Shown here piece after piece: positions 14,271 through 28,724 of a stretch of DNA of 34,695 bases. Below the pieces are notes generated by a model that was given only the letters and a program-made list of their open reading frames with translations, searched no databases and was not told the DNA's origin. Each line of letters opens with the position of its first letter. Position 1 is the first letter of the stretch. The stretch covers positions 1 through 34,695 of the forward strand of contig NZ_JAGGQL010000062.1 in the NCBI RefSeq assembly GCF_018613315.1, in the 5' to 3' direction. A program made the position numbers and the translations under genes. Source of the DNA: Bacillus sp. ISL-37. GTDB lineage: Bacteria > Bacillota > Bacilli > Bacillales > Cytobacillaceae.

Positions 14271-14320
14271 AGAACAATATCTTATAAGAAAAGATGAAAA
14301 GAGACTTTGGGGTGAAAAAA

Positions 14321-15268
14321 GTGATCAGCTTTGAAAATGTATCGAAGAAATATGACGATGGAACCTATGCAGTAAAAAATTTTAATTTACATATCAATGA
14401 AGGGGAATTGCTTGTCCTGATCGGTCCCAGCGGCTCGGGAAAAACGACCACATTAAAAATGATCAATCGATTGATTCCTCTTACGGAAGGCTACATTAAA
14501 ATCAAGGATAAGATGATCAGTGACTATGATATTCATGAGCTTCGTTGGGACATTGGATATGTCCTTCAGCAAATTGCGCTATTTCCGCATATGACGATTG
14601 AAGAGAATATTGCGGTTGTCCCGGAAATGAAGAAATGGGAGCAGCAAAAGATTGATCACCGTATAGATGAATTACTGAATATGGTTGGACTTGAACCAAA
14701 GACGTACCGTAAAAGGCTTCCTCATGAATTATCGGGAGGACAGCAGCAACGAATTGGTGTAGCTCGCGCACTGGCGGCCAACCCGCCGATTATTTTAATG
14801 GACGAGCCATTCAGCGCTTTGGATCCCCTGAGCAGGGAGAAGCTTCAGGATGACCTTATCGAACTGCAAAAGAACATAAAGAAAACTATCGTATTCGTGA
14901 CCCATGATATGAGTGAAGCACTAAAGCTCGGAGAACGGATTTGCCTGATGAAGAATGGAGAAGTTGTGCAGACAGGAACTCCGGAAGAGCTGATCCAACA
15001 ACCTGTAAATGATTTTGTCCGTGAATTTGTGGGGATAGATCAGGGAAATCAAACTACGGTAGATGTGCGGGAAGCTATCCAACCGTTAGCCGCTGATGAA
15101 CTGAACAATCTGCCTGTAATTCCCTCAACAGTATCTATAAATGAAATTCTTTCGTTATTGAGTGAGCATGAACAGCTGGCGGTTGAAGACATGGATGAAA
15201 TAATCGGGACCATAGACAGGCGTGGAATGATCCGGATTTTATCCAGGCAGATGGAGGGGATGATATGA
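14321..15268 (+). CDS. OpuC/EgtV-type ABC transporter ATP-binding protein
   Basis: ATPase of a quaternary-amine type importer. From the chosen GTG start (MISFENVSKKY) it is 315 aa: Walker A GPSGSGKT at 35-42, Q-loop VLQQI near 81, signature LSGGQ at 137-141, Walker B ILMDEP near 158-163, and H-loop VTHD. The C-terminal stretch (about 245-315) resembles a single worn CBS unit; OpuBA and OpuCA are near 380 aa with two. GTG 14321 is preferred because GGGGTG sits about 6 nt upstream and homologues start at this point; in-frame ATG 14294 and GTG 14312 are alternatives with poorer sites. It overlaps the permease gene by ATGA. Confidence 0.9.
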   Translation: MISFENVSKKYDDGTYAVKNFNLHINEGELLVLIGPSGSGKTTTLKMINRLIPLTEGYIKIKDKMISDYDIHELRWDIGYVLQQIALFPHMTIEENIAVVPEMKKWEQQKIDHRIDELLNMVGLEPKTYRKRLPHELSGGQQQRIGVARALAANPPIILMDEPFSALDPLSREKLQDDLIELQKNIKKTIVFVTHDMSEALKLGERICLMKNGEVVQTGTPEELIQQPVNDFVREFVGIDQGNQTTVDVREAIQPLAADELNNLPVIPSTVSINEILSLLSEHEQLAVEDMDEIIGTIDRRGMIRILSRQMEGMI

Positions 15269-16782
15269 ATAGCTGGACTTCCACATTCATAGATAGAAAG
15301 GACGATCTTTTAAGTTCTCTTCTGGAACATATCCAAATTTCATTTATAGCACTGTTTTTCGCTGTCCTAATTGCCATACCTTTGGGAATCTATCTTACCA
15401 GAAAGAAGCAAATATCGGAGGGAATCATTGGGGTAACAGCTGTTCTGCAAACGATCCCTTCGCTTGCATTACTTGGTCTATTGATACCGCTATTCGGAAT
15501 AGGGAAAGTCCCTGCCATCATCGCCCTCGTGGTATATGCGCTGCTGCCGATATTAAGGAATACATACACAGGAATCAATGAGGTGGATCCATCGCTAATT
15601 GAGGCCTCTCGTGCCATGGGAATGAACAGCAAGCGACGTCTGATGAAAGTCGAACTCCCTTTGGCGATGCCGGTCATTATGGCTGGCATCAGGACGGCTA
15701 TGGTTTTGATTGTCGGAACAGCGACGATTGCTGCGCTGATTGGAGCAGGAGGGTTGGGAGACCTGATCCTTCTCGGAATCGACAGGAATAATACGGCTTT
15801 AATTGTACTTGGCGCAATACCCGCCGCCTTGCTTGCCATCCTGTTCGACATTGTGCTTAGAAGGTTCGAAACTGTTTCCTTTAAAAAATCTCTTATCACC
15901 ATTGGTGCCATATCTTTAGCAGTCCTTTTAATAATGGTCATTCCATTTTTAGGCGGGAAAAATGAAGAAGAGATCGTCATTGGGGGAAAGCTGGGTTCCG
16001 AACCTGAGATTTTAATCAATATGTATAAACTTCTGATTGAAGAAGAAACGGACCATTCTGTCCAGATGAAACCTGGGCTGGGGAAGACTTCATTTGTTTT
16101 TACGGCGTTGGAAAATGGCAATATTGACATCTATCCCGAATTTACCGGCACGGCCATTTCGGAATTTTTAAAAGAAACGGCCAGCAGCACAAGCCGGGAA
16201 GAAGTATACCAGCAGGCAAAAGAAGGGATGAAAAAAGAGTTCGAGATGGAAATGCTTCAGCCTATGGACTATAACAACACCTATGCTTTAGCTGTTCCAA
16301 AACAGCTGGCAATTGAAAATGGCTTGAAAACCATTTCCGATTTAAAAGCGATTGAATCCTCGCTAAAGGCAGGTTTCACACTAGAATTTTCAGATAGAGA
16401 AGATGGTTACAAAGGAATCAAAAAGCTCTACGGACTAAAGCTTCCAAGCCTGATCACAATGGAGCCAAAACTAAGATATCGAGCGGTCAAAAATGGCGAA
16501 ATAAACCTTGTAGATGCCTACTCAACAGACAGTGAACTCCAGCGATACAAACTCGTCGTGCTTGAAGATGATAAAAACTTATTCCCTCCATATCAGGGTG
16601 CGCCTCTTTTGAGAGCTGAAACAGCAGAGAAATATCCGGAAATCGTTAAGGCACTCAACAAGCTAGCCGGTAAAATAACAGATGACGAAATGCGGAAAAT
16701 GAATTACCAGGTGAATGTAGAAGGGAAGTCGGCTGAGGAGACTGCTCGGGAGTACCTTTTGGAAGCGGGATTTATTGATTAA
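15265..16782 (+). CDS. permease-substrate-binding fusion of an OpuC/BilE/EgtU-type importer
   Basis: A 505-aa fusion. Residues about 15-228 hold roughly six membrane helices with the EAA-type loop EASRAMGMNSKRRLMKVELP. Residues about 233-505 form an outward-facing periplasmic-binding-like domain beginning IVIGGKLGSEPEIL and containing DIYPEFTGTA, as in the glycine betaine/choline OpuAC family. Separate genes encode these parts in OpuB and OpuC of B. subtilis; fusion is the layout of Listeria BilE and pneumococcal EgtU, the latter an ergothioneine importer. Substrate is therefore either an osmoprotectant or ergothioneine and cannot be decided here. It overlaps the ATPase gene by 4 nt and is followed by a terminator. 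Confidence 0.9.
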   Translation: MNSWTSTFIDRKDDLLSSLLEHIQISFIALFFAVLIAIPLGIYLTRKKQISEGIIGVTAVLQTIPSLALLGLLIPLFGIGKVPAIIALVVYALLPILRNTYTGINEVDPSLIEASRAMGMNSKRRLMKVELPLAMPVIMAGIRTAMVLIVGTATIAALIGAGGLGDLILLGIDRNNTALIVLGAIPAALLAILFDIVLRRFETVSFKKSLITIGAISLAVLLIMVIPFLGGKNEEEIVIGGKLGSEPEILINMYKLLIEEETDHSVQMKPGLGKTSFVFTALENGNIDIYPEFTGTAISEFLKETASSTSREEVYQQAKEGMKKEFEMEMLQPMDYNNTYALAVPKQLAIENGLKTISDLKAIESSLKAGFTLEFSDREDGYKGIKKLYGLKLPSLITMEPKLRYRAVKNGEINLVDAYSTDSELQRYKLVVLEDDKNLFPPYQGAPLLRAETAEKYPEIVKALNKLAGKITDDEMRKMNYQVNVEGKSAEETAREYLLEAGFID

Positions 16783-17008: not shown

Positions 17009-17176
17009 TTGAAAGTGACAGACGGAAAGGCCCAGGCAGAAGTTCAGGATGAAATCGTAGAGGTTACCAGTGACGACAAATCGAAGGTAGGAACCTGGAT
17101 ATCTGTTGGAGTAGTAGGAGCAGTCATTCTTGCTACGTACTTTATTCTATTTGGACTCTATATGGCAAGAGTTTAG
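17009..17176 (+). CDS. small subunit IIa-like protein of heme-copper oxidoreductase (55 aa)
   Basis: A 55-codon frame too short for routine calling. TTG 17009 follows AAAGGAGGGG with 6-7 nt spacing (GTG 17015 is an alternative). The first 26 residues are acidic and polar; residues about 27-50 form one membrane helix (ISVGVVGAVILATYFILFGLY) ending MARV. A single-helix subunit of this size directly before subunit II is the subunit IIa of B-family (ba3-type) enzymes, which replaces the missing first helix of subunit II. It is 17 nt upstream of subunit II and first in the operon. Confidence 0.85.
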   Translation: MKVTDGKAQAEVQDEIVEVTSDDKSKVGTWISVGVVGAVILATYFILFGLYMARV

Positions 17177-17193
17177 AAGGGGGAGCGAAAAAG

Positions 17194-17655
17194 ATGCATT
17201 TAGATGAAAAAATCTGGCTGTTTTTAAGTTTTGGAATGATCATGGGTTTCATGATTTTTACTGGGTATCAAGCAGTGGCTTTGGGAATGGGGCCCCCAAG
17301 CCATAAAGAAACGATCGATCCTCAAAAGGTCGATGAAACAGCTCCATTTGATGAGCCGGGAATAAAACAAATCGGTGAAAATGAGTATGAAGTTGTCATG
17401 ACCCTGCAGGTGTTTAGTTTTACACCAATGGAAATCGAAGTCCCAGCTGGTTCAACCGTCCATTTCACGTTAACGTCAAAAGATGTTGTTCATGGTTTCC
17501 AGGTGGCAAATACGAATTTAAATGCAATGGTTATGCCGGGGCATATCCAAAAAATATCTCAAAAGTTTGATCAACCGGGTGAATATTTGGTGTTATGCAA
17601 TGAGTATTGCGGTGCAGGGCACCAGGCTATGAGCACGAAGATCATCGTAAAATAA
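17194..17655 (+). CDS. CuA-containing subunit II of a ba3/sNOR-type heme-copper oxidoreductase
   Basis: A 153-aa electron-entry subunit: one N-terminal membrane anchor (about 7-30) and an external cupredoxin domain. The CuA ligand set is complete: H100 (DVVHGF), C135, E137 and C139 (LCNEYCGAGHQAM), H143 and M146. It passes electrons from a cytochrome c or similar donor to subunit I. Size and the single helix match B-family subunit II and also NorS of the alternative nitric oxide reductase. RBS GGGGGAG, ATG 17194; 16 nt before subunit I. Confidence 0.92.
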   Translation: MHLDEKIWLFLSFGMIMGFMIFTGYQAVALGMGPPSHKETIDPQKVDETAPFDEPGIKQIGENEYEVVMTLQVFSFTPMEIEVPAGSTVHFTLTSKDVVHGFQVANTNLNAMVMPGHIQKISQKFDQPGEYLVLCNEYCGAGHQAMSTKIIVK

Positions 17656-17671
17656 AAAGGGGGGAAACAAT

Positions 17672-19357
17672 GTGCAGTCTGCAATAAGATCAACTTCATT
17701 TAAACAGAAAACAAATCAAATATTAGGAATCAGCCAGGAAGATGCCAGGATTTCGAAATCATACTTATCTATCGCATTTATCGCATTGCTGCTCGGCGGT
17801 TTTCTTGGATTGTTACAAGGGTTGAATCGTGCTGGTGTCCTGCAATTGCCGCCGTGGCTTAACTATTATCAGGTGCTGACGGCTCATGGAATCCTGTTAG
17901 TTGTTGTATTGTCCGCGTTTTTCACGATTGGGTATTTTTATGCCGGACTCTCTCATACACTGGGAGGATTGCTGCCTAAAGTAAGGAAAATGGCATGGAT
18001 CGGCTTTTGGATAAAAATTTTCGGATTTGTATTGGTCGTCATTCCAATTTTAAAGAATGAAGCATCCGTCATGTATACCTTCTACCCGCCAATGGCTGCA
18101 TCGCCAATGTTTTACTTTGGCTTAGTGTTCATTGTATTAGGCATCTGGATGCTTTCATTGGGAGCATTTACACAGGTAGCGAACTGGAGAAGGAACCACA
18201 AGGGACAACATCTCCCGATACTCGCCTTCTTTGCAACTGGTGTCTTTGTCCTGTTAGTCGGCGCAACAGCTTTTGTTGCAGTAGAAGTCCTTTTCATGAT
18301 CATTCCATGGACACTTGGCTGGACTGACGGCATAAACGTATTGCTGGCGCGTACACTTTTCTGGGCATTTGGCCATACTGCCGTTAACATTTGGTATCTG
18401 ACAGCTGTATCAGCATGGTATGTAATCGTTCCAAAAATAATCGGCGGAAACCGCTGGAATGATCTTTTAACTCGTATGGTTGTCATTCCGTTAGTGATCA
18501 TGAACATTACCGGCGGATTTCACCATCAGATCATTGACCCGGGTATTTCCGAGTCCATCAAATATATGCACGTTTTCATGAGCCTTGCAATCGGATTTCC
18601 TTCTTTAATGACCGCGTACGCGATGTTCAGGGTTTTTGAACGTACGGCAAGAGCGAAAGGCGGAAAAGGTTTAGTTGGCTGGTATAAAAAGATGCCATGG
18701 GGCGATGTACGATTCCTGTCACCGTTTATCGCCATGGTAGCATTCATTCCCGCTGGAGCTGGCGGAATTGCACAAAGTACGAACCAATTAGACCAGGTTG
18801 TACACAATACGATGTGGGTGGTAGGTCATTTCCACATAACGCTTGGTATGTCTGTCATCATGACCTTCTTCGGCATCAGTTACTGGCTGGTACCATACCT
18901 TTCAAAACGGGTGTTGACTCCCGGCATGAATAGATTGGGAGTGATTCAAACCGCCATATGGACTTTAGGGATGGTGATCATGGCGATTTCCATGCATATC
19001 GTGGGTCTTTTCGGTTCTCCGCGAAGAACTTCATTCACAACCTATGGAAATTTTGCAGAAACGCTTGGATGGAATCCATATATGGTTGCAGTAGGCATTG
19101 GAGCAAGTTTATTGCTAGTGGCCGTCATCATGCAAGTTTATGCGGTTTTCAATCTCATGTTCTTTGCTCCAAAGGGAGTAACAGAGTTTCCAATTGCAGA
19201 AGAGGAAGCAGGAGCAGCGAAAACACCATACTGGACAGAGCGCTGGGGAATCTGGGTGGTGCTCATGCTATTGGTTGTTTCAATGGCATATGTCCTGCCA
19301 ATCGCAGACATGATTATGAATGCACCTCCTGGCTCGCCGCCATTTAAAACGTGGTAA
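17672..19357 (+). CDS. B-family heme-copper subunit I lacking the active-site tyrosine (NorY-like candidate)
   Basis: A 561-aa subunit I with about 13 membrane helices. All six metal-ligand histidines are present: H72 (low-spin heme), H235, H284, H285 (CuB or FeB), H386 and H388 (hemes). Aligned by eye with Thermus ba3, where H233 is followed by PIVY, the sequence here is GHTAVN: the cross-linked tyrosine position is N239, and the K-channel Tyr244 equivalent is V246. S311 and T314 of that channel remain. Loss of this tyrosine is seen in NO reductases of the superfamily, not in O2 reductases. Automatic annotation would probably say ba3 cytochrome c oxidase. GTG 17672 with a GGGGGG-rich site; the ATG at 17670 is out of frame and stops at once. 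Confidence 0.88.
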   Translation: MQSAIRSTSFKQKTNQILGISQEDARISKSYLSIAFIALLLGGFLGLLQGLNRAGVLQLPPWLNYYQVLTAHGILLVVVLSAFFTIGYFYAGLSHTLGGLLPKVRKMAWIGFWIKIFGFVLVVIPILKNEASVMYTFYPPMAASPMFYFGLVFIVLGIWMLSLGAFTQVANWRRNHKGQHLPILAFFATGVFVLLVGATAFVAVEVLFMIIPWTLGWTDGINVLLARTLFWAFGHTAVNIWYLTAVSAWYVIVPKIIGGNRWNDLLTRMVVIPLVIMNITGGFHHQIIDPGISESIKYMHVFMSLAIGFPSLMTAYAMFRVFERTARAKGGKGLVGWYKKMPWGDVRFLSPFIAMVAFIPAGAGGIAQSTNQLDQVVHNTMWVVGHFHITLGMSVIMTFFGISYWLVPYLSKRVLTPGMNRLGVIQTAIWTLGMVIMAISMHIVGLFGSPRRTSFTTYGNFAETLGWNPYMVAVGIGASLLLVAVIMQVYAVFNLMFFAPKGVTEFPIAEEEAGAAKTPYWTERWGIWVVLMLLVVSMAYVLPIADMIMNAPPGSPPFKTW

Positions 19358-19360
19358 AAA

Positions 19361-19479
19361 GAAAAGCGCAAGCGCCTTGTTCAGCCCCGACAAGCGTTGG
19401 AGGGCCGACCGGTGAAGTCGTTCTTTGACTTCATTGGGCGGACCGAAACGATCGAGGAGCTAGGCGCTGGAGCTGGACA
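19361..19479. repeat. 119-bp structured intergenic repeat of the GCGCAAGCGCC...GGCGCTGGAGCTGGAC type
   Basis: The element begins GAAAAGCGCAAGCGCC and ends GGCGCTGGAGCTGGAC. AGCGCCT (19371-19377) pairs with AGGCGCT (19462-19468), and inside it TGAAGTC (19412-19418) pairs with GACTTCA, so it folds into a branched stem. From memory, sequences with these two ends are scattered many times through Bacillus/Mesobacillus genomes; only one copy is in this window. It separates subunit I from the SCO gene and has no coding potential. Confidence 0.7.
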
Positions 19480-19522
19480 CTAATGTTGGTTCAAAAACTT
19501 TCTTACCTTTTTAAATGTAAGC

Positions 19523-19557
19523 AAAGAGATAGCTCCTACATTCAGGGCTATCTCTTT
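19523..19557 (+). terminator. strong hairpin before the SCO gene, possible attenuator
   Basis: AAAGAGATAGC (19523-19533) and GCTATCTCTTT (19547-19557) form a perfect 11-bp stem. The following bases are CAAATC, so the T run is poor. It ends only 16 nt before the likely start of the SCO gene, so it may attenuate read-through or protect RNA rather than terminate fully. Confidence 0.5.
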
Positions 19558-19573
19558 CAAATCAGCACACTAT

Positions 19574-20260
19574 GTGAAATTGGAATCTATTGAAGAATCA
19601 TCACTGAAAAAATGGGATGTGATCAATTTGATCAAAAATCGGCAAACGACCGTTTCTTGCATAGTTGTATTGGTGTTTGGACTGTTTTTATTTTATACAG
19701 GAACAGACGGATTCACTGCTTATACAGCAGAGACAGCAAGAGTGACAAAGCTGGTTGAGGAACAGCCCCAGTTTCCGGAATTAACCTTTGAGGATAGTGA
19801 GGGTCGGACCTATTCAATATCTGAATTCGAAGGTAAGTATGTATTTATCACTTTTATTTATACAGGTTGCACCACTATTTGCATAAAACTAGAGGAAAAC
19901 ATGTCGCAGGTGTACAATCTGCTTCCCAGTGAGTATATAGGCAAGGATATTGTCTTTTTAAGCATAAGCTTTGATCCAGGCAAAGATGATCCTGCTACGT
20001 TAAACAAGTATAAGGATTTATTCGGAAGTGACGGAGAGACTTGGAGAATGGCAAGGATTCCGGACCAGGATCAGTTAGATACCTTACTGAAGAAGTTTGG
20101 CGTCATTGTAATTCCAGATGGAAATGGGAACTTCGCACATAATTCAGCGTTTTATTTAGTGGACCGGCAAGGAGCGCTAGTGGATGTAATGGATTTTACA
20201 CAGGTAAATGATGCGGCAGATAAGTTGATAGAGACTCTAGAAACAGACTGGGGGAAATAA
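19574..20260 (+). CDS. SCO1/SenC family copper chaperone
   Basis: A 228-aa membrane-anchored thioredoxin-fold protein. One helix at about 25-42 is followed by an external domain with the copper motif C99-x3-C103 (GCTTIC) and H189 (FAHNS), the three ligands used by SCO proteins to load CuA. Its partner is evidently subunit II encoded upstream. The gap to subunit I is 216 nt and filled by a repeat and a hairpin. The start is uncertain: GTG 19574 has no ribosome site; GTG 19619 and TTG 19628 are in-frame alternatives just before the helix. It is followed after 2 nt by 20263. Confidence 0.88.
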   Translation: MKLESIEESSLKKWDVINLIKNRQTTVSCIVVLVFGLFLFYTGTDGFTAYTAETARVTKLVEEQPQFPELTFEDSEGRTYSISEFEGKYVFITFIYTGCTTICIKLEENMSQVYNLLPSEYIGKDIVFLSISFDPGKDDPATLNKYKDLFGSDGETWRMARIPDQDQLDTLLKKFGVIVIPDGNGNFAHNSAFYLVDRQGALVDVMDFTQVNDAADKLIETLETDWGK

Positions 20261-20262
20261 CG

Positions 20263-20820
20263 ATGAATCAGTTTCTTATCGGGCTTGTCCTTTTAATCGG
20301 TTTAATGCTTCCTCCTGTTGCAAACTTAATGGAATCCGTCATGATCATTCACATGCATATGCAAATGCCTATGCTAGTGATTGCCGGTTTTTTCATGGGA
20401 CAGTTTTTCCAGCAGAGGTTTCCTCATTTCTTTTCAAAATATAATCAAGAGGGAATCCCAGGAATCCTCCTCTTTATCATTATAATGGGTTATTGGATGC
20501 TGCCGCGCACAATGGATGAAGCGTTGACTGTAAATAGTGTGGAATTATTCAAGTTTATCAGTTTGCCATTCCTCGCGGGAGTGCCTCTAAGAGATTCCTG
20601 GAAGAAACTCAGCAAGAATCGAAAAAATTATACCATTGCATTTTTTACAGTGATTTTTTTCGGGATGGGCTGGTTATATATTCAAGCAAACGACCAGCTA
20701 TGCAATAATTATCTAGTAGTTGACCAGATTATCCTCGGCTGGGGATTCATCACAATGGCCATTTGTATGGTGGTTTACTTAGCTTATACGGTGTTAGTGG
20801 ATCCTTCTTTATATGAGTAG
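20263..20820 (+). CDS. membrane protein with HMHMQM motif, CtaG-like or orf1 of norSY-senC-orf1
   Basis: A 185-aa protein with about five membrane helices. The first loop/helix carries E24 and IIHMHMQMP (H30, H32 with methionines at 31, 33 and 35), a likely copper site that recalls the HMxxH helix of CtaG copper-assembly proteins, though the whole protein is much shorter. It is 2 nt after the SCO gene with GGGGGA upstream. Being last in an operon of subunit IIa, II, I and SenC, it is probably an assembly factor for the metal centres. I do not recognise a named family with certainty. Confidence 0.8.
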   Translation: MNQFLIGLVLLIGLMLPPVANLMESVMIIHMHMQMPMLVIAGFFMGQFFQQRFPHFFSKYNQEGIPGILLFIIIMGYWMLPRTMDEALTVNSVELFKFISLPFLAGVPLRDSWKKLSKNRKNYTIAFFTVIFFGMGWLYIQANDQLCNNYLVVDQIILGWGFITMAICMVVYLAYTVLVDPSLYE

Positions 20821-23691: not shown

Positions 23692-23712
23692 ATTGAAATT
23701 GGAGTGGAATAC

Positions 23713-25269
23713 ATGCTTAAAAAGTTTATTACGCTTATGGCAATAGCTATCATCTTTATTTTTGTATCAGGATGTAACAATCAACAGAAAAGCAGTAATT
23801 CAATGAAAGAGGAAGTCTCACCTAAATCAACAGAATCAGGGGAAAAATCACTTACATTATTGTTCAGCTTTGCATCCAAAACAATTGATCCTCATCAAGA
23901 TTGGATGGGTGTCCGTGCAGGCATTGCAGAGACTTTAGTTAAAATTGATGAAAACCTTACGATCAAGCCGTGGTTAGCTGAATCTTGGGAACAAGTGGAT
24001 GATAGAACATGGACGTTTACATTGCGAGAGGGGATTACGTTTCATGATGGTACTCCAATGAATGCAGAAGCGGTGAAAGCCTCATTCGAAAGAGCCTTAA
24101 GTGTAAACGATTCTATTAGCTCTAGCCTAAAAATTGAGTCAATGGAAGCAAACGGTCAAGAAATTACGTTTGTGACAAAGGAAAAATACCCAGCATTTCT
24201 ATCGGAACTTGTGCACACTAATGCTTCCATTATTAAGGTGGATGCAGATAACATAAGCGAGAGGCCAATTGCTACAGGTCCGTTTAAAGTGGCGGATTTT
24301 TTACCTGAGTCTGAAATCAAGTTAGAGAAGTATGCTGACTATTGGGATGGCGCTGCAAATATTGATAAAGCAACCATTAAATTCAACTCCGATGGGAATG
24401 TCCGTGCGCTAGCCCTTCAATCGGGTGAAGCGGATATTGCCTATCATTTACCTCCTGAAGGACTTAGTGCAATTGAAAACAGTAACAATCTTCGAGTAGA
24501 GTCGGTGTCAAGCTTGCGGGTTCATTTTATCTTGTATAACTCAGCAAAGCCAGCCTTGCAAGATGGAAAGGTTCGAAAAGCATTAGACTTACTGGTGAAT
24601 CGGCCTGTGATGGTAAATGAGATAATGAATGGCCATGCTACAGCTGCAAATGGACCTTTTAATCCTTCATTCCCATTTGCTTCAGATATTGATCCGGCTA
24701 GCTATGATCCAGCTAAAGCAAAATCTTTACTAAAAGAAGCGGGGTATGAGAAAAACAAAGCTGGAAAACTTGAAAAAGATGGTGAAGTTCTTCAGCTGAC
24801 AATTGCCACTTATCAGGGAAGACCTGAATTGCCTTTAATGGCTCAATATCTACAAGCAGAAGCAGCTAGTTTAGGGATTGATATCAACATAGTAACGGTT
24901 GAGGACATTGATACTTATTTGTGGGAACAACAAAATGAGTGGGATATGGCGACATATTCTAATTTAACAGCTCCAAGAGGGGATGGAGGATACTTCTTTA
25001 ACGTTGCTTACTTGCCAGAGGGTTCTTTAAACCCTGGACAAATCAACATTCCGGAAGTAAACGAATTAACGGAACAACTAAATGAAAAAGCCGATCAACA
25101 AGAACGAATTGCTTTACAAAAGAAAGCGGTGGCTATTATTCAAGAACAGCTTCCGCAATCCTTTATTTTACACCCGCATATCATTGTCGGTGTAAATGAA
25201 CGGGTGAAAAATTGGAGCCCAGGATCAGAAGAGTATTATTCGATTACGAATTCAATAGATGTTGAATAA
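23713..25269 (+). CDS. lipoprotein solute-binding protein, Opp/Nik/Cnt type (SBP family 5)
   Basis: A 518-aa extracellular lipoprotein. The signal peptide ends in the lipobox VSGC, and the mature part is an SBP_bac_5 fold with TFTLREGITFHDGTPMNAEAV near residue 105 and ATGPFKV near 190. The best resemblance is to nickel or metallophore binding proteins (NikA/CntA): SSLRVHFILYN and TAPRGDGGYF fall where that group has its ligand-binding arginines. With two Zur boxes upstream, uptake of a zinc-metallophore complex is more likely than peptide import, but this is inference. ATG 23713 is preferred over GTG 23704 because GGAGTGG sits 5 nt before it. A hairpin follows. Confidence 0.9.
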   Translation: MLKKFITLMAIAIIFIFVSGCNNQQKSSNSMKEEVSPKSTESGEKSLTLLFSFASKTIDPHQDWMGVRAGIAETLVKIDENLTIKPWLAESWEQVDDRTWTFTLREGITFHDGTPMNAEAVKASFERALSVNDSISSSLKIESMEANGQEITFVTKEKYPAFLSELVHTNASIIKVDADNISERPIATGPFKVADFLPESEIKLEKYADYWDGAANIDKATIKFNSDGNVRALALQSGEADIAYHLPPEGLSAIENSNNLRVESVSSLRVHFILYNSAKPALQDGKVRKALDLLVNRPVMVNEIMNGHATAANGPFNPSFPFASDIDPASYDPAKAKSLLKEAGYEKNKAGKLEKDGEVLQLTIATYQGRPELPLMAQYLQAEAASLGIDINIVTVEDIDTYLWEQQNEWDMATYSNLTAPRGDGGYFFNVAYLPEGSLNPGQINIPEVNELTEQLNEKADQQERIALQKKAVAIIQEQLPQSFILHPHIIVGVNERVKNWSPGSEEYYSITNSIDVE

Positions 25270-25278
25270 GAAAGAATT

Positions 25279-25312
25279 GTGAAAGTGTCTACGATACTTT
25301 CACTTTTCTTGT
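25279..25312 (+). terminator. intra-operon hairpin after the binding-protein gene
   Basis: GTGAAAGTGT (25279-25288) pairs with ATACTTTCAC (25294-25303) with one G-U pair and a 5-nt loop, followed by TTTTCTTGTT. Such hairpins between a binding-protein gene and its permease genes usually give partial termination and more binding protein than membrane components. Confidence 0.75.
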
Positions 25313-25340
25313 TCTTTTCAGTGTATAGGAGGTGCCTGGG

Positions 25341-26291
25341 GTGAGAAAAATTTTGTCTATCGTTGCTTCAAGGCTTGTTCAATTATTCATCATGGTTTCA
25401 ATCCTTTCTTTTGTGACCTTTGTATTAATTAAGGTCACACCTGGTGATCCCATTCGGGATTTGCTAAATGTAGATGATGTTGTTGCAACAAAAGCTGATG
25501 AGGAAAGGTTAAAGATAGAATATGAGTTTGATAAGCCAATTTTCGTTCAATATGGAAAATGGATTTTGAATGTCATGCATTTTGATTTGGGAGAATCTAT
25601 TATTTCCAAACGACCAGTTAAGGAAATGATCCTTAGCAGATTGCCAGCGACCATTTCCTTAACGACTGGTGGCATGGTCGTACTGTTTTTACTTTCCATT
25701 TCATTTGGAACTCTAGGTGCTGTTTATGAAGGTCGTTGGCCAGACTTTATTAGCAGATGGGTGGCCATGTTAGGTGCTTCTATTCCTAGTTTTTGGCTGG
25801 GTCTATTGTTAATTTATTTCTTTTCCTTAAAACTTAATCTTTTACCGGTAATGGGAAAGGGGACGTTAGCCCATTTTGTATTGCCCTCGATCACACTAGG
25901 TGTTGCTATGGCTCCAATGTATATTCGACTCTTACGTGAGCGTCTTATTTCTACATTACAAAGTTCGTACATTGAGGCAGCCAGGGCAAGGGGATTAAGT
26001 AAAGAACGGATCCTATTCTTTCATGCCTTAAGAGGAAGTCTAATACCGTTGCTTACTATGTTTGGCTTGAGTATTGGAAGCCTTTTAGGAGGAGTTACGG
26101 TAATTGAAATCCTTTTCTCTTGGCCGGGAATGGGAGAGCTTATTGTGAGCTCGGTAAAACAACGTGATTATCCTGTCATACAAGGTTACATTCTCATAGT
26201 GGGTTTTTTAGTTGTGCTTACCAATCTAATTGTCGATTTATTATATTTAGTTGTTAATCCTCAAATCAAACAAGGAAAGGAGACTGTGTAA
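25341..26291 (+). CDS. ABC transporter permease, NikB/DppB/CntB type
   Basis: A 316-aa permease with about six helices, starting RKILSIVASRLVQLFIMVSILSF with the usual TPGDP motif after helix 1 and the EAA loop EAARARGLSKERILFFHALR near residue 215. GTG 25341 is chosen because AGGAGGTG is 6 nt upstream; the frame can be extended to GTG 25332. It overlaps the next permease by one base (TAATG). Part of the five-gene importer behind the Zur promoter. Confidence 0.92.
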   Translation: MRKILSIVASRLVQLFIMVSILSFVTFVLIKVTPGDPIRDLLNVDDVVATKADEERLKIEYEFDKPIFVQYGKWILNVMHFDLGESIISKRPVKEMILSRLPATISLTTGGMVVLFLLSISFGTLGAVYEGRWPDFISRWVAMLGASIPSFWLGLLLIYFFSLKLNLLPVMGKGTLAHFVLPSITLGVAMAPMYIRLLRERLISTLQSSYIEAARARGLSKERILFFHALRGSLIPLLTMFGLSIGSLLGGVTVIEILFSWPGMGELIVSSVKQRDYPVIQGYILIVGFLVVLTNLIVDLLYLVVNPQIKQGKETV

Positions 26292-27139
26292 TGGAACCGG
26301 CTTTGATAAAAGCTAAAGCATTTAAACTTATCCATGATCCTAATATGACAATAGGACTTTTCCTTGTTGTGCTATTAGGCGGGGTAACAATCCTTGGTGG
26401 ATGGCTTCTTCCACACGATCCCTTTCAAATAAATATGAATAATAGATTACAAGGAACTTCCTTGGACCATTGGTTTGGTACAGACCAATTAGGGCGGGAT
26501 GTATTTTCAAGAATTATTTATGGTGCAAAATTAACCATCGGACTCGGTGTATTTGCCATTATGATAGCTGTGGTTATCGGCGTACCAATTGGTCTTTTTT
26601 CAGGTTTTATAGGTGGAAGAGTAGATGCTTTCTTAATGAGAATTGTAGACGGCATATTGTCGTTTCCCGATTTTATTCTTGCTATTGCCATTGCTGGTAT
26701 GCTTGGACCTAACTTAACAAATTTAATCATAGCGATCGTTTTAGTGAGATGGATCGTATATGCACGAGTTGTGCGTGGATTGGTGCTGGCTGAGAAAGAA
26801 AAGGAGTATGTGCTAGTTTCCAAGGTCTCGTTTTCTAGTGCCTTCAAAACAATAAGGATGCATTTAATTCCGCAAATTCTTCCAGATATCATTGTCATGG
26901 CTGCCATTGATGTGGGGAAGGTCATTCTGCTCATCTCTGCGTTTTCTTATATTGGTCTCGGAGCACAGCCGCCTATTCCAGAATGGGGAGCTATGTTGAA
27001 TGAAGGGCGTTCATACTTTCAAGTCGTACCTTCTCTAATGATTTACCCAGGTCTCGCCATTATGTTAACGGTATTATGCTGCAACCTGCTAGGTGATGGA
27101 CTGAAAAACTATTTTGATATTCGCAAAAGGAGGGGTTAA
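26291..27139 (+). CDS. ABC transporter permease, NikC/DppC/CntC type
   Basis: A 282-aa permease. It shows the DppC-family N-terminal helix, then GTDQLGRDVFSRIIYGAKLTIGLG and the cytoplasmic EAA-like loop around residues 175-195. The C-terminal LGAQPPIPEWGAMLNEGR is the family hallmark. It pairs with the preceding permease to form the channel. It overlaps both neighbours by one base, so translation is coupled. Confidence 0.93.
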   Translation: MEPALIKAKAFKLIHDPNMTIGLFLVVLLGGVTILGGWLLPHDPFQINMNNRLQGTSLDHWFGTDQLGRDVFSRIIYGAKLTIGLGVFAIMIAVVIGVPIGLFSGFIGGRVDAFLMRIVDGILSFPDFILAIAIAGMLGPNLTNLIIAIVLVRWIVYARVVRGLVLAEKEKEYVLVSKVSFSSAFKTIRMHLIPQILPDIIVMAAIDVGKVILLISAFSYIGLGAQPPIPEWGAMLNEGRSYFQVVPSLMIYPGLAIMLTVLCCNLLGDGLKNYFDIRKRRG

Positions 27140-27960
27140 TGATGAAAAGTTCTTTGATTTCCATACAAGATTTGCGGATTACTAGTCAATCAGAAGAGAA
27201 GGTGTTAGTTAGCAATGTCAATTTAGAGATTGAAAAGGGAGAAATTGTCGGTCTTATTGGAGAAAGTGGCAGCGGAAAAAGTTTAACCGCTAGAGCTGTC
27301 ATGAGACTTCTCCCCCCAGATATGAAAGTTAGTGGGGAAATTTTTTATAAAGGTACTGATATGCTGGCGGTCAATCCTAAAGAGGACCGTCATTTACTTG
27401 GAAGTGGAATAGGTATGATCTTTCAAGATTACAGAGGCAGCTTTACTCCTTTTATTAAAATTGGTAATCAGATGATCGAAACAATTCGAACACATTACAA
27501 GATGACTAAAAAAGAAGCAAAAAATATTGCTCTTAATGTTCTGGAAGAAATGGGACTAGAATCAAAACGAGTTTATGGAAGCTATTCTTTTCAACTAAGT
27601 GGAGGACAGGTTCAGCGCGCAGCTATAGCGATGTCGCTAGCTTTAAAACCAGATTTAATCATTTGTGATGAAATGACGACAGCACTGGATGTAATGAGCG
27701 GTGAAAGAGTATTAGATTATATTGATCAAATAAGGAATAATACAGGTTGCTCTGTCTTAATGATTACTCATGATTTAGCATTAGCCTATAAAAGGACAGA
27801 TCGTATGTATGTCATGAATCAAGGAGAAATAGTCGAAGAAGGTTTACCTGAACAAATTCGCTGTCATCATAAACATCCTTATACAAAAAAACTTTGTTCT
27901 TGCTTATTGGCTCTCCCTGCAGAGAAGTCAATACAAGAGAAAAGAGCGTATTCAGTATGA
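27139..27960 (+). CDS. ABC transporter ATP-binding protein, NikD/DppD/CntD type
   Basis: A 273-aa ATPase: Walker A GESGSGKS near residue 40, Q-loop MIFQDYRGSFTP, signature LSGGQVQR, Walker B LIICDEMTTALDV, H-loop ITHD, and the C-terminal HPYTKKL tail characteristic of the Opp/Nik family. Two adjacent ATGs (27139, 27142) follow AAAGGAGGGG; either could start. It overlaps the second ATPase gene by ATGA. Confidence 0.92.
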   Translation: MMKSSLISIQDLRITSQSEEKVLVSNVNLEIEKGEIVGLIGESGSGKSLTARAVMRLLPPDMKVSGEIFYKGTDMLAVNPKEDRHLLGSGIGMIFQDYRGSFTPFIKIGNQMIETIRTHYKMTKKEAKNIALNVLEEMGLESKRVYGSYSFQLSGGQVQRAAIAMSLALKPDLIICDEMTTALDVMSGERVLDYIDQIRNNTGCSVLMITHDLALAYKRTDRMYVMNQGEIVEEGLPEQIRCHHKHPYTKKLCSCLLALPAEKSIQEKRAYSV

Positions 27961-28724
27961 GCCTGATCATAGAAGGTCTTTCAAAACAGTACACCAAGGG
28001 TACTCAAGCGTTAAGGCATATTTCCCTCACAGTTCCAGAAGGTGAATGTGTTGGCATAGTTGGAGAAAGTGGCAGCGGAAAAAGTACGTTAGCCCGTATT
28101 CTATTAGGATTGGAACCATATAAAGAAGGTTTTATCACTTATAAAGGGAAGCAAATCGTCCCAAAAAATCGAAGTTCGTTACGCGAATACCGTAAGAGTG
28201 TCCAAATGGTTTTCCAGGATTCTACCAGCACATTAAACCCTAAATTGCCAGTATGGAAAAGTTTACTAGAACCATTGGATAATTATAAAGAAGCCTCACC
28301 TTCATTTCTGGAACAAGGTCTTACAAAATTGGAAAAGGCAGAGAAGCTTTTAGAAATAGTTGGATTAGAAAAAGAAATGATTAATCGTTATCCAGGGGAG
28401 TTAAGTGGGGGACAAAAGCAGCGTGTTAGTATTGCTAGAGCCATTAGTCTTGAACCTTCACTTCTGGTTTGTGATGAACCTACTGCTAGCTTAGATGTAA
28501 CAGTACAAGTTCAAATCCTGCAACTTCTCAAGGAGCTTCAAAGGAAAACCAACATGACCATTCTTTTTATTTCTCACGACATAAGAGCTGTTGCGTATTT
28601 ATGTGAGCGAATGATCGTTCTAAAAGACGGTTTAATGGTTGATGAGTTCAGAATGGATGACATTTATCACAGGGAACGTCATCCCTATACAAAAGCCCTT
28701 ATTCAAGCAGCTTCGTTAGAATAA
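27957..28724 (+). CDS. ABC transporter ATP-binding protein, NikE/DppF/CntF type
   Basis: A 255-aa ATPase partner of the preceding one. Walker A GESGSGKST, Q-loop MVFQDSTSTLNP, signature LSGGQKQR, Walker B LLVCDEPTASLDV, H-loop ISHD and the tail RHPYTKALI are all present. ATG 27957 is preferred: it gives the usual MSLIIEGLSKQY start and an ATGA overlap with the previous stop; the longer frame from TTG 27894 is an overlap artefact. It completes a five-component importer. Confidence 0.92.
   Translation: MSLIIEGLSKQYTKGTQALRHISLTVPEGECVGIVGESGSGKSTLARILLGLEPYKEGFITYKGKQIVPKNRSSLREYRKSVQMVFQDSTSTLNPKLPVWKSLLEPLDNYKEASPSFLEQGLTKLEKAEKLLEIVGLEKEMINRYPGELSGGQKQRVSIARAISLEPSLLVCDEPTASLDVTVQVQILQLLKELQRKTNMTILFISHDIRAVAYLCERMIVLKDGLMVDEFRMDDIYHRERHPYTKALIQAASLE

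Follow-up and report, generated by a model that had tools for sequence, protein, structure and literature searches.

Operon structure and identity with a purified enzyme

The window, a 34,695-nucleotide stretch of Bacillus sp. ISL-37 (contig NZ_JAGGQL010000062.1), contains a five-gene operon on the + strand (positions 17009–20820) that encodes a small peptide, a CuA subunit II, a subunit I, an SCO protein, and a membrane protein, in this order (Table 1). To judge from its sequence, the operon very probably encodes a bNOR (CuANOR, qCuANOR type I), a B-family heme-copper-type nitric oxide (NO) reductase. The family is called bNOR, formerly CuANOR, in PMC11388526. The window operon is clearly a further member of this known family, close to an enzyme that has already been purified. 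An earlier note on this DNA had suggested that the operon, although annotated by similarity as a ba3 oxidase, might encode an NO reductase of the sNOR type.

All five genes are orthologous to, and in the identical order as, those of an operon on contig 42 of Schinkia (Bacillus) azotoformans LMG 9581 (BAZO_06394–06409). This locus came from a scan of GTDB contigs for G-H-x-x-x-N at a set spacing from GFHHQ, which returned at least 116 stretches, 108 with a subunit I (tblastn, ≥300 bits) and 8 without. Heylen and Keltjens (2012, PMC3475470) identify this S. azotoformans operon as that of the CuANOR which Suharti and co-workers had purified, on the basis of two N-terminal sequences, one from subunit II and one from a small peptide. 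The window proteins share 80% amino acid identity with CbaB1, 74% with CbaA1, 65% with SenC1, 68% with CbaD1, and 55% over 38 amino acids with CbaC1. The N-terminus of subunit II reads MHLDEKIWLFLSFGMIMGFM in the window and MHKSEKIWLTLSFGMIMGFM in the purified S. azotoformans protein; a further N-terminus reported from the purified enzyme is nearly that of S. azotoformans CbaC1 (PMC3475470). The stretch GHTAVNIWYLTAVSAWYVIVPK around Asn239 and Tyr242 of subunit I is identical in the S. azotoformans enzyme, which also shares the CuA subunit II, the asparagine in place of the oxidase tyrosine, and an FNR-like box upstream. Because of this orthology with a purified CuANOR (5/5 genes, 55–80% identity) and of the trees described below, the enzyme almost certainly reduces NO rather than O2, as the earlier note had suggested. 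Unlike S. azotoformans, the window genome shows at E 1e-40 nothing that matches the type II enzyme, the second one of that strain.

Table 1. Features of the operon region in the window, with the basis of each assignment.
Feature	Position	Strand	Basis
FNR-like box, TGTGA-TTTGAC-TCACT (TGTGATTTGACTCACT); followed after 57 bases by the operon's first start codon	16936..16951	+	TGTGAN6TCACA, ≤1 mismatch
One-helix peptide like cbaC, 55 aa (assuming a TTG start); probable subunit IIa	17009..17176	+	sequence; S. azotoformans CbaC1 match
cbaB-like subunit II, CuA domain, one membrane helix (by reading)	17194..17655	+	Pfam COX2; S. azotoformans CbaB1 match
cbaA-like subunit I, putative bNOR/CuANOR catalytic subunit, 561 aa	17672..19357	+	Pfam COX1; CbaA1 identity; trees; fold
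Dispersed structured repeat between subunit I and SCO	19357..19490	+	genome matches; predicted fold −53.6 kcal/mol
SCO/SenC copper-insertion protein	19574..20260	+	Pfam SCO1-SenC; S. azotoformans SenC1 match
cbaD-like membrane protein, 185 aa	20263..20820	+	S. azotoformans CbaD1 match

Subunit I scores 261.9 bits against Pfam COX1, and its best solved relative is the Thermus ba3 oxidase (290.9 bits, best chain), whose subunit II is likewise the best solved relative of the window subunit II. None of the 25 solved sequences that match subunit I at E 0.001 bears the name of an NO reductase. An AlphaFold2 model of subunit I built from a 10-row alignment matches the fold of Thermus ba3 (TM-score 0.85). 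For the cbaD-like protein, neither Pfam nor NCBIfam gives a match at E 0.01.

Residues of the catalytic subunit

The six metal-ligand histidines (H72, H235, H284, H285, H386, and H388) are all present in subunit I, and alignment with the Thermus ba3 oxidase places N239 opposite its cross-linked tyrosine (which we take to be Tyr237) and V246 opposite the next K-channel tyrosine; Y250 is retained. The histidines, Asn239 and Val246 had all been read correctly in the earlier note. The His-linked tyrosine in helix VI that marks the O2-reducing ba3 oxidases is thus replaced by N239, whereas it is a tyrosine both in Thermus ba3 and in the ba3-type oxidase encoded elsewhere in the same genome (contig C37). 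These two oxidases share with the window enzyme the six histidines, the CuA subunit II, and Tyr250; they differ in having tyrosine at the cross-link and at the next K-channel position. The combination of six metal-ligand histidines with asparagine for the cross-linked tyrosine is a hallmark of the bNORs, and Table A4 of PMC8756737 lists asparagine as the CuANor residue.

Residue conservation was assessed in 167 full-length frames with B-family spacing and GHFH; five frames with GHLH and the short frames were excluded. The cross-link position is Asn in 143 and Tyr in 24 (126 and 23 once identical cores are removed). Many of the loci came from the Asn-pattern scan, which gives no frequencies, so the set is enriched for Asn. 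As the two groups are defined by residue 239 itself, only other positions count as evidence. In the 126 core Asn-type sequences, Glu205, Tyr242, Tyr250, His300, and Ser304 are invariant and position 246 is Val (95), Thr (14), Ile (14), or Leu (3). Every one of the 23 Tyr-type sequences has Leu at 242, Tyr at 246, and Tyr at 250, and six sNORs have Asn, Ile, Val, and Tyr at 239, 242, 246, and 250. Asn239 is not a sequencing accident, because subunit I is 93–100% identical in 14 of the 21 genomes of the genus (its own included) and the same residue occurs in the 143 Asn frames.

Glu205 had been put forward in the earlier note as a possible proton donor near the metal site. Its position is correct and it is Glu throughout the core Asn-type group (126/126), but a role specific to NO reductases is ruled out, since Glu also occurs in Thermus ba3 and in two of the 23 Tyr-type sequences (the other 21 have Thr).

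The invariant tyrosine three residues past Asn239 raises the alternative of an O2-reducing, ba3-like oxidase that uses Tyr242. The exchange of Leu (23/23 Tyr-type) for Tyr (126/126 core Asn-type) would fit such a relocation, and a possible O2 reductase role has been argued for the nitrifier sNOR in PMC6967387. This alternative is nevertheless very unlikely: GHTAVNIWYLTAVSAWYVIVPK is the same in the S. azotoformans enzyme, whose family was purified as an NO reductase (PMC3475470), the window genome already encodes a ba3-type, a cbb3, and two A-family oxidases, and relatives of the Planococcaceae type have Met at 242. The nitrifier case is a caution against reading function from the asparagine alone; for a bNOR, the purified orthologue is the better guide.

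The Planococcaceae-type relatives (loci L088, L100, L119, L141, and L216) share Asn at the tyrosine place, but have Met at 242 and GHLH; the motif of L216 is GHTLVNIWM. In the four of these loci that were checked by tblastn for SCO and CbaD genes nearby, subunits II and I were found alone. By sequence, this clade is a deep side branch of the bNORs. It is possible, if rather doubtful, that the core bNORs moved their active-site tyrosine (Tyr242, with a re-routed K-channel and electrogenic NO reduction) and that the Planococcaceae clade is a functionally distinct, earlier-branching NO reductase.

Phylogeny of subunit I

Two trees of subunit I were built, one with 59 rows and a second, more careful one with 54, which leaves out qNOR, cbb3, the long Thermomicrobium row, and two duplicate bNOR rows. 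Seven rows represented the sNORs, six of them from Bacillota, among these S. azotoformans type II, and one from Ruegeria pomeroyi, formerly placed in Silicibacter, so that the comparison with nitrifiers is indirect. The window protein groups with those of Mesobacillus boroniphilus, M. persicus, and S. azotoformans (support 100/99 in the 54-row tree; SH-aLRT, the approximate likelihood ratio test, 99 in the 59-row tree). The bNORs form one side of a branch comprising 30 rows (99/100; 98% of 200 bootstrap trees), and the sNORs form a separate clade (7 rows, 100/100). A tree had been named in the earlier note as a check on its reading, and this one nests the window protein within the bNOR clade and not among the Tyr-type ba3 oxidases. 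Amino acid identity of subunit I is 97% to M. boroniphilus, 74% to S. azotoformans, 47% to the ba3-type oxidase of the same genome, 34% to Thermus ba3, and 25–30% to four sNORs.

Strict sNOR membership is extremely unlikely given these identities (25–30%, against 97 and 74% to bNORs) and the separate sNOR clade. That subfamily includes enzymes of Ruegeria (Silicibacter) and Geobacillus; Table A4 of PMC8756737 lists Silicibacter and Betaproteobacteria under it. The sNOR label of the earlier note can be traced to the literature, as PMC3475470 heads the S. azotoformans operon “(qCuANOR, sNOR)”. The sNORs (norSY-senC-orf1), such as S. azotoformans type II and the cluster SPO_RS20760–20745 of R. 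pomeroyi, do share the asparagine and the order subunit II, subunit I, SCO, membrane protein. Their subunit I is shorter (493 amino acids against 561 in the window), S. azotoformans type II has PHHL where the window has GFHHQ, and its subunit II is described as having two helices (PMC3475470). The type II sNOR of S. azotoformans has no match in the window genome at E 1e-40, a threshold at which it is present in 15 of 299 genomes of the order. In the approximately unbiased (AU) test, a tree in which the sNORs are held together with the window protein stays acceptable (p 0.191), as does a single clade of bNORs and sNORs (p 0.262), so that neither grouping is rejected. These values are read as a loose placing of the long sNOR branch and not as kinship of the window protein; one or two origins of the asparagine in bNORs and sNORs are therefore both compatible with them.

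Gene order and subunit II across relatives

Gene order was examined in 150 loci with subunit I (137 distinct), of which 60 had full flanks (59 distinct). The order II-I-SCO-D occurs in 54 of the 60, 41 of them with a detectable subunit IIa, and subunits II and I alone, with or without IIa, in the other six; with duplicates removed, II-I-SCO-D is found in 53 of 59, 40 with IIa. The exceptions are L084, L113, and L148, together with the Planococcaceae loci L100, L119, and L141. The CuA subunit II with a one-helix peptide, and SCO and CbaD genes downstream, are hallmarks of bNOR loci that the window shares. The order subunit II, subunit I, SCO/SenC, membrane protein was given correctly in the earlier note, except that a 55-residue peptide leads it. 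The likeness to the norS-norY-senC-orf1 cluster noted there also holds, as the R. pomeroyi sNOR cluster has this arrangement, but it is not diagnostic since the order is identical in bNORs and in that sNOR.

The CuA motif is present in 115 of 116 distinct subunit II sequences. Glu5 of the window subunit II aligns with residue 15 of Thermus subunit II (1ehk_B), also a Glu, and 110 of 116 distinct sequences have Glu at the equivalent place by a strict pattern (8 more had no room for it); in three of the six misses, the Glu is visible by eye. One locus, in a record titled Arthrobacter beigongshangensis (Actinomycetota; L123), contains all five bNOR genes with a subunit I 72% identical, and reflects either horizontal transfer or a contaminated assembly.

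An FNR-like box upstream of the operon

The box upstream of the operon (Table 1) matches TGTGAN6TCACA, which we take to be the FNR consensus, with at most one mismatch, as no other site in the window does. The upstream regions of 132 bNOR loci comprise 116 distinct ones, whose rows are related and therefore do not count as independent events. Among them, 17 have an exact site, 65 a site with one mismatch, and 34 a worse one, giving 82 of 116 with at most one mismatch. Order-1 shuffles predict 1.2 such sites, and coding stretches, used as an internal control, have none (0/116). A limited literature search found no earlier description of an FNR-like box at bNOR loci. In the genome, 12 HTH_Crp_2 matches exceed the Pfam cut-off. 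Low O2 would probably raise expression of the operon via an FNR-type regulator. Two features, the Tyr242 conserved throughout the core bNORs and the widespread FNR-like box, offer testable leads on the conversion of a B-family oxidase to electrogenic NO reduction and on when the enzyme is switched on.

Proposed mechanism and points of doubt

In the proposed reaction, two NO would be reduced to N2O at the heme/metal-B site held by the six histidines. Electrons would pass from the CuA centre of subunit II, supplied by a membrane cytochrome c or possibly by menaquinol, to the low-spin heme and on to the heme/metal-B site, while the SCO protein would load copper. Asn239 occupies the position of the cross-linked tyrosine, on which oxidases depend to split O2. 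Protons would probably come from the cytoplasm through a remodelled K-channel, which retains Glu5 of subunit II, Tyr250, and Ser304 (at the place of a Thr). As the protons are probably taken up from the cytoplasm, the reaction should be electrogenic. This would match the S. azotoformans CuANOR, which is described as electrogenic and as keeping many K-pathway features (PMC5826923; PMC10256718).

Several observations weigh against this reading of the operon. The K-channel is, by sequence, only partly present, both upper tyrosines being lost as in the 126 core bNORs, and Tyr242 might conceivably take over from the missing active-site tyrosine; an O2 side activity is possible. The predicted structure of subunit I is of moderate quality (predicted local distance difference test score, pLDDT, 76; predicted template modelling score, pTM, 0.83). 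Finally, the box upstream points to low O2 and not to NO, because the operon of the ba3-type oxidase in the same genome (L003) also has such boxes, two of them within the 1000 bases before subunit I.

Genome setting and distribution

The 4.74-Mb genome contains seven places of the COX1 family. Besides the window enzyme and a short 122-amino-acid frame, these are two A-family oxidases by reading (motif GHPEVYI), the ba3-type oxidase that keeps the tyrosine (GHPLVYFW), a cbb3 oxidase (302 bits to ccoN, under the NCBIfam cut-off of 583), and a 787-amino-acid qNOR that scores 1407 bits to the solved NO reductase 3ayf and has no NCBIfam family at 1e-10. NosZ (870.9 bits) and NrfA (415.4 bits) are both over their cut-offs. 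For NirK, the best match in the genome reaches 36.5 bits against a cut-off of 296.3. A Cytochrome D1 match of 43.3 bits (Pfam cut-off 25.5) covers part of the family only and was not taken as NirS. The gene set resembles that of Bacillus vireti, for which NrfA, CuANor, and NosZ without nirK or nirS are described (PMC4719734; PMC10653820).

NO reduction thus appears to be encoded twice, by bNOR and qNOR, in a genome without a clear NO-forming nitrite reductase. Since NrfA and NosZ are present and there is no clear NirK or NirS, the likely role of the operon in its host, probably a Mesobacillus, would be to clear NO that leaks from nitrite ammonification or comes from neighbours, while conserving energy. 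In the order, at least 47 of 299 genomes have a subunit I match of ≥64% (including one cut off by the edge of a contig and one with an internal stop); among the matches listed, the rest are at most 51% identical and include ba3-type oxidases and one Asn-type sequence (L216). Because general annotation models read the operon as a cytochrome c oxidase, its N2O-forming capacity would be missed. In KEGG, according to PMC11388526, bNOR and sNOR are filed as coxA.

Dispersed repeat, SCO motif, and flanking genes

The gap of 216 bases between the subunit I and SCO genes contains a dispersed repeat of about 120–134 bp, which has at least 42 matches in the genome, its own copy included (40 of 174 candidates scored). 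Its long copies are 87–96% identical, and several strains of the genus have related copies at the same place. The repeat is not part of the enzyme, and it may affect read-through. The SCO active site (19874–19891) reads CTTICI, its S. azotoformans counterpart CGSVCP; together with the repeat and the 74% identity of subunit I, this sets the window operon apart from that of S. azotoformans. Both the repeat and the altered motif could speak for a decayed or silent oxidase copy, a reading that is almost certainly wrong: the five frames are open, the metal ligands and CuA motif are intact, the FNR-like box is kept, and near-identical copies persist in the 14 genomes of the genus mentioned above. 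By comparison with S. azotoformans, the GTG at 19619 may be the true start of the SCO gene.

On either side of the operon lie genes that, by reading of the sequence, appear to encode ATP-binding cassette (ABC) transporters: an osmoprotectant-type system upstream (14294–16782) and a peptide/nickel-type system with two ATPases downstream (23704–28724).

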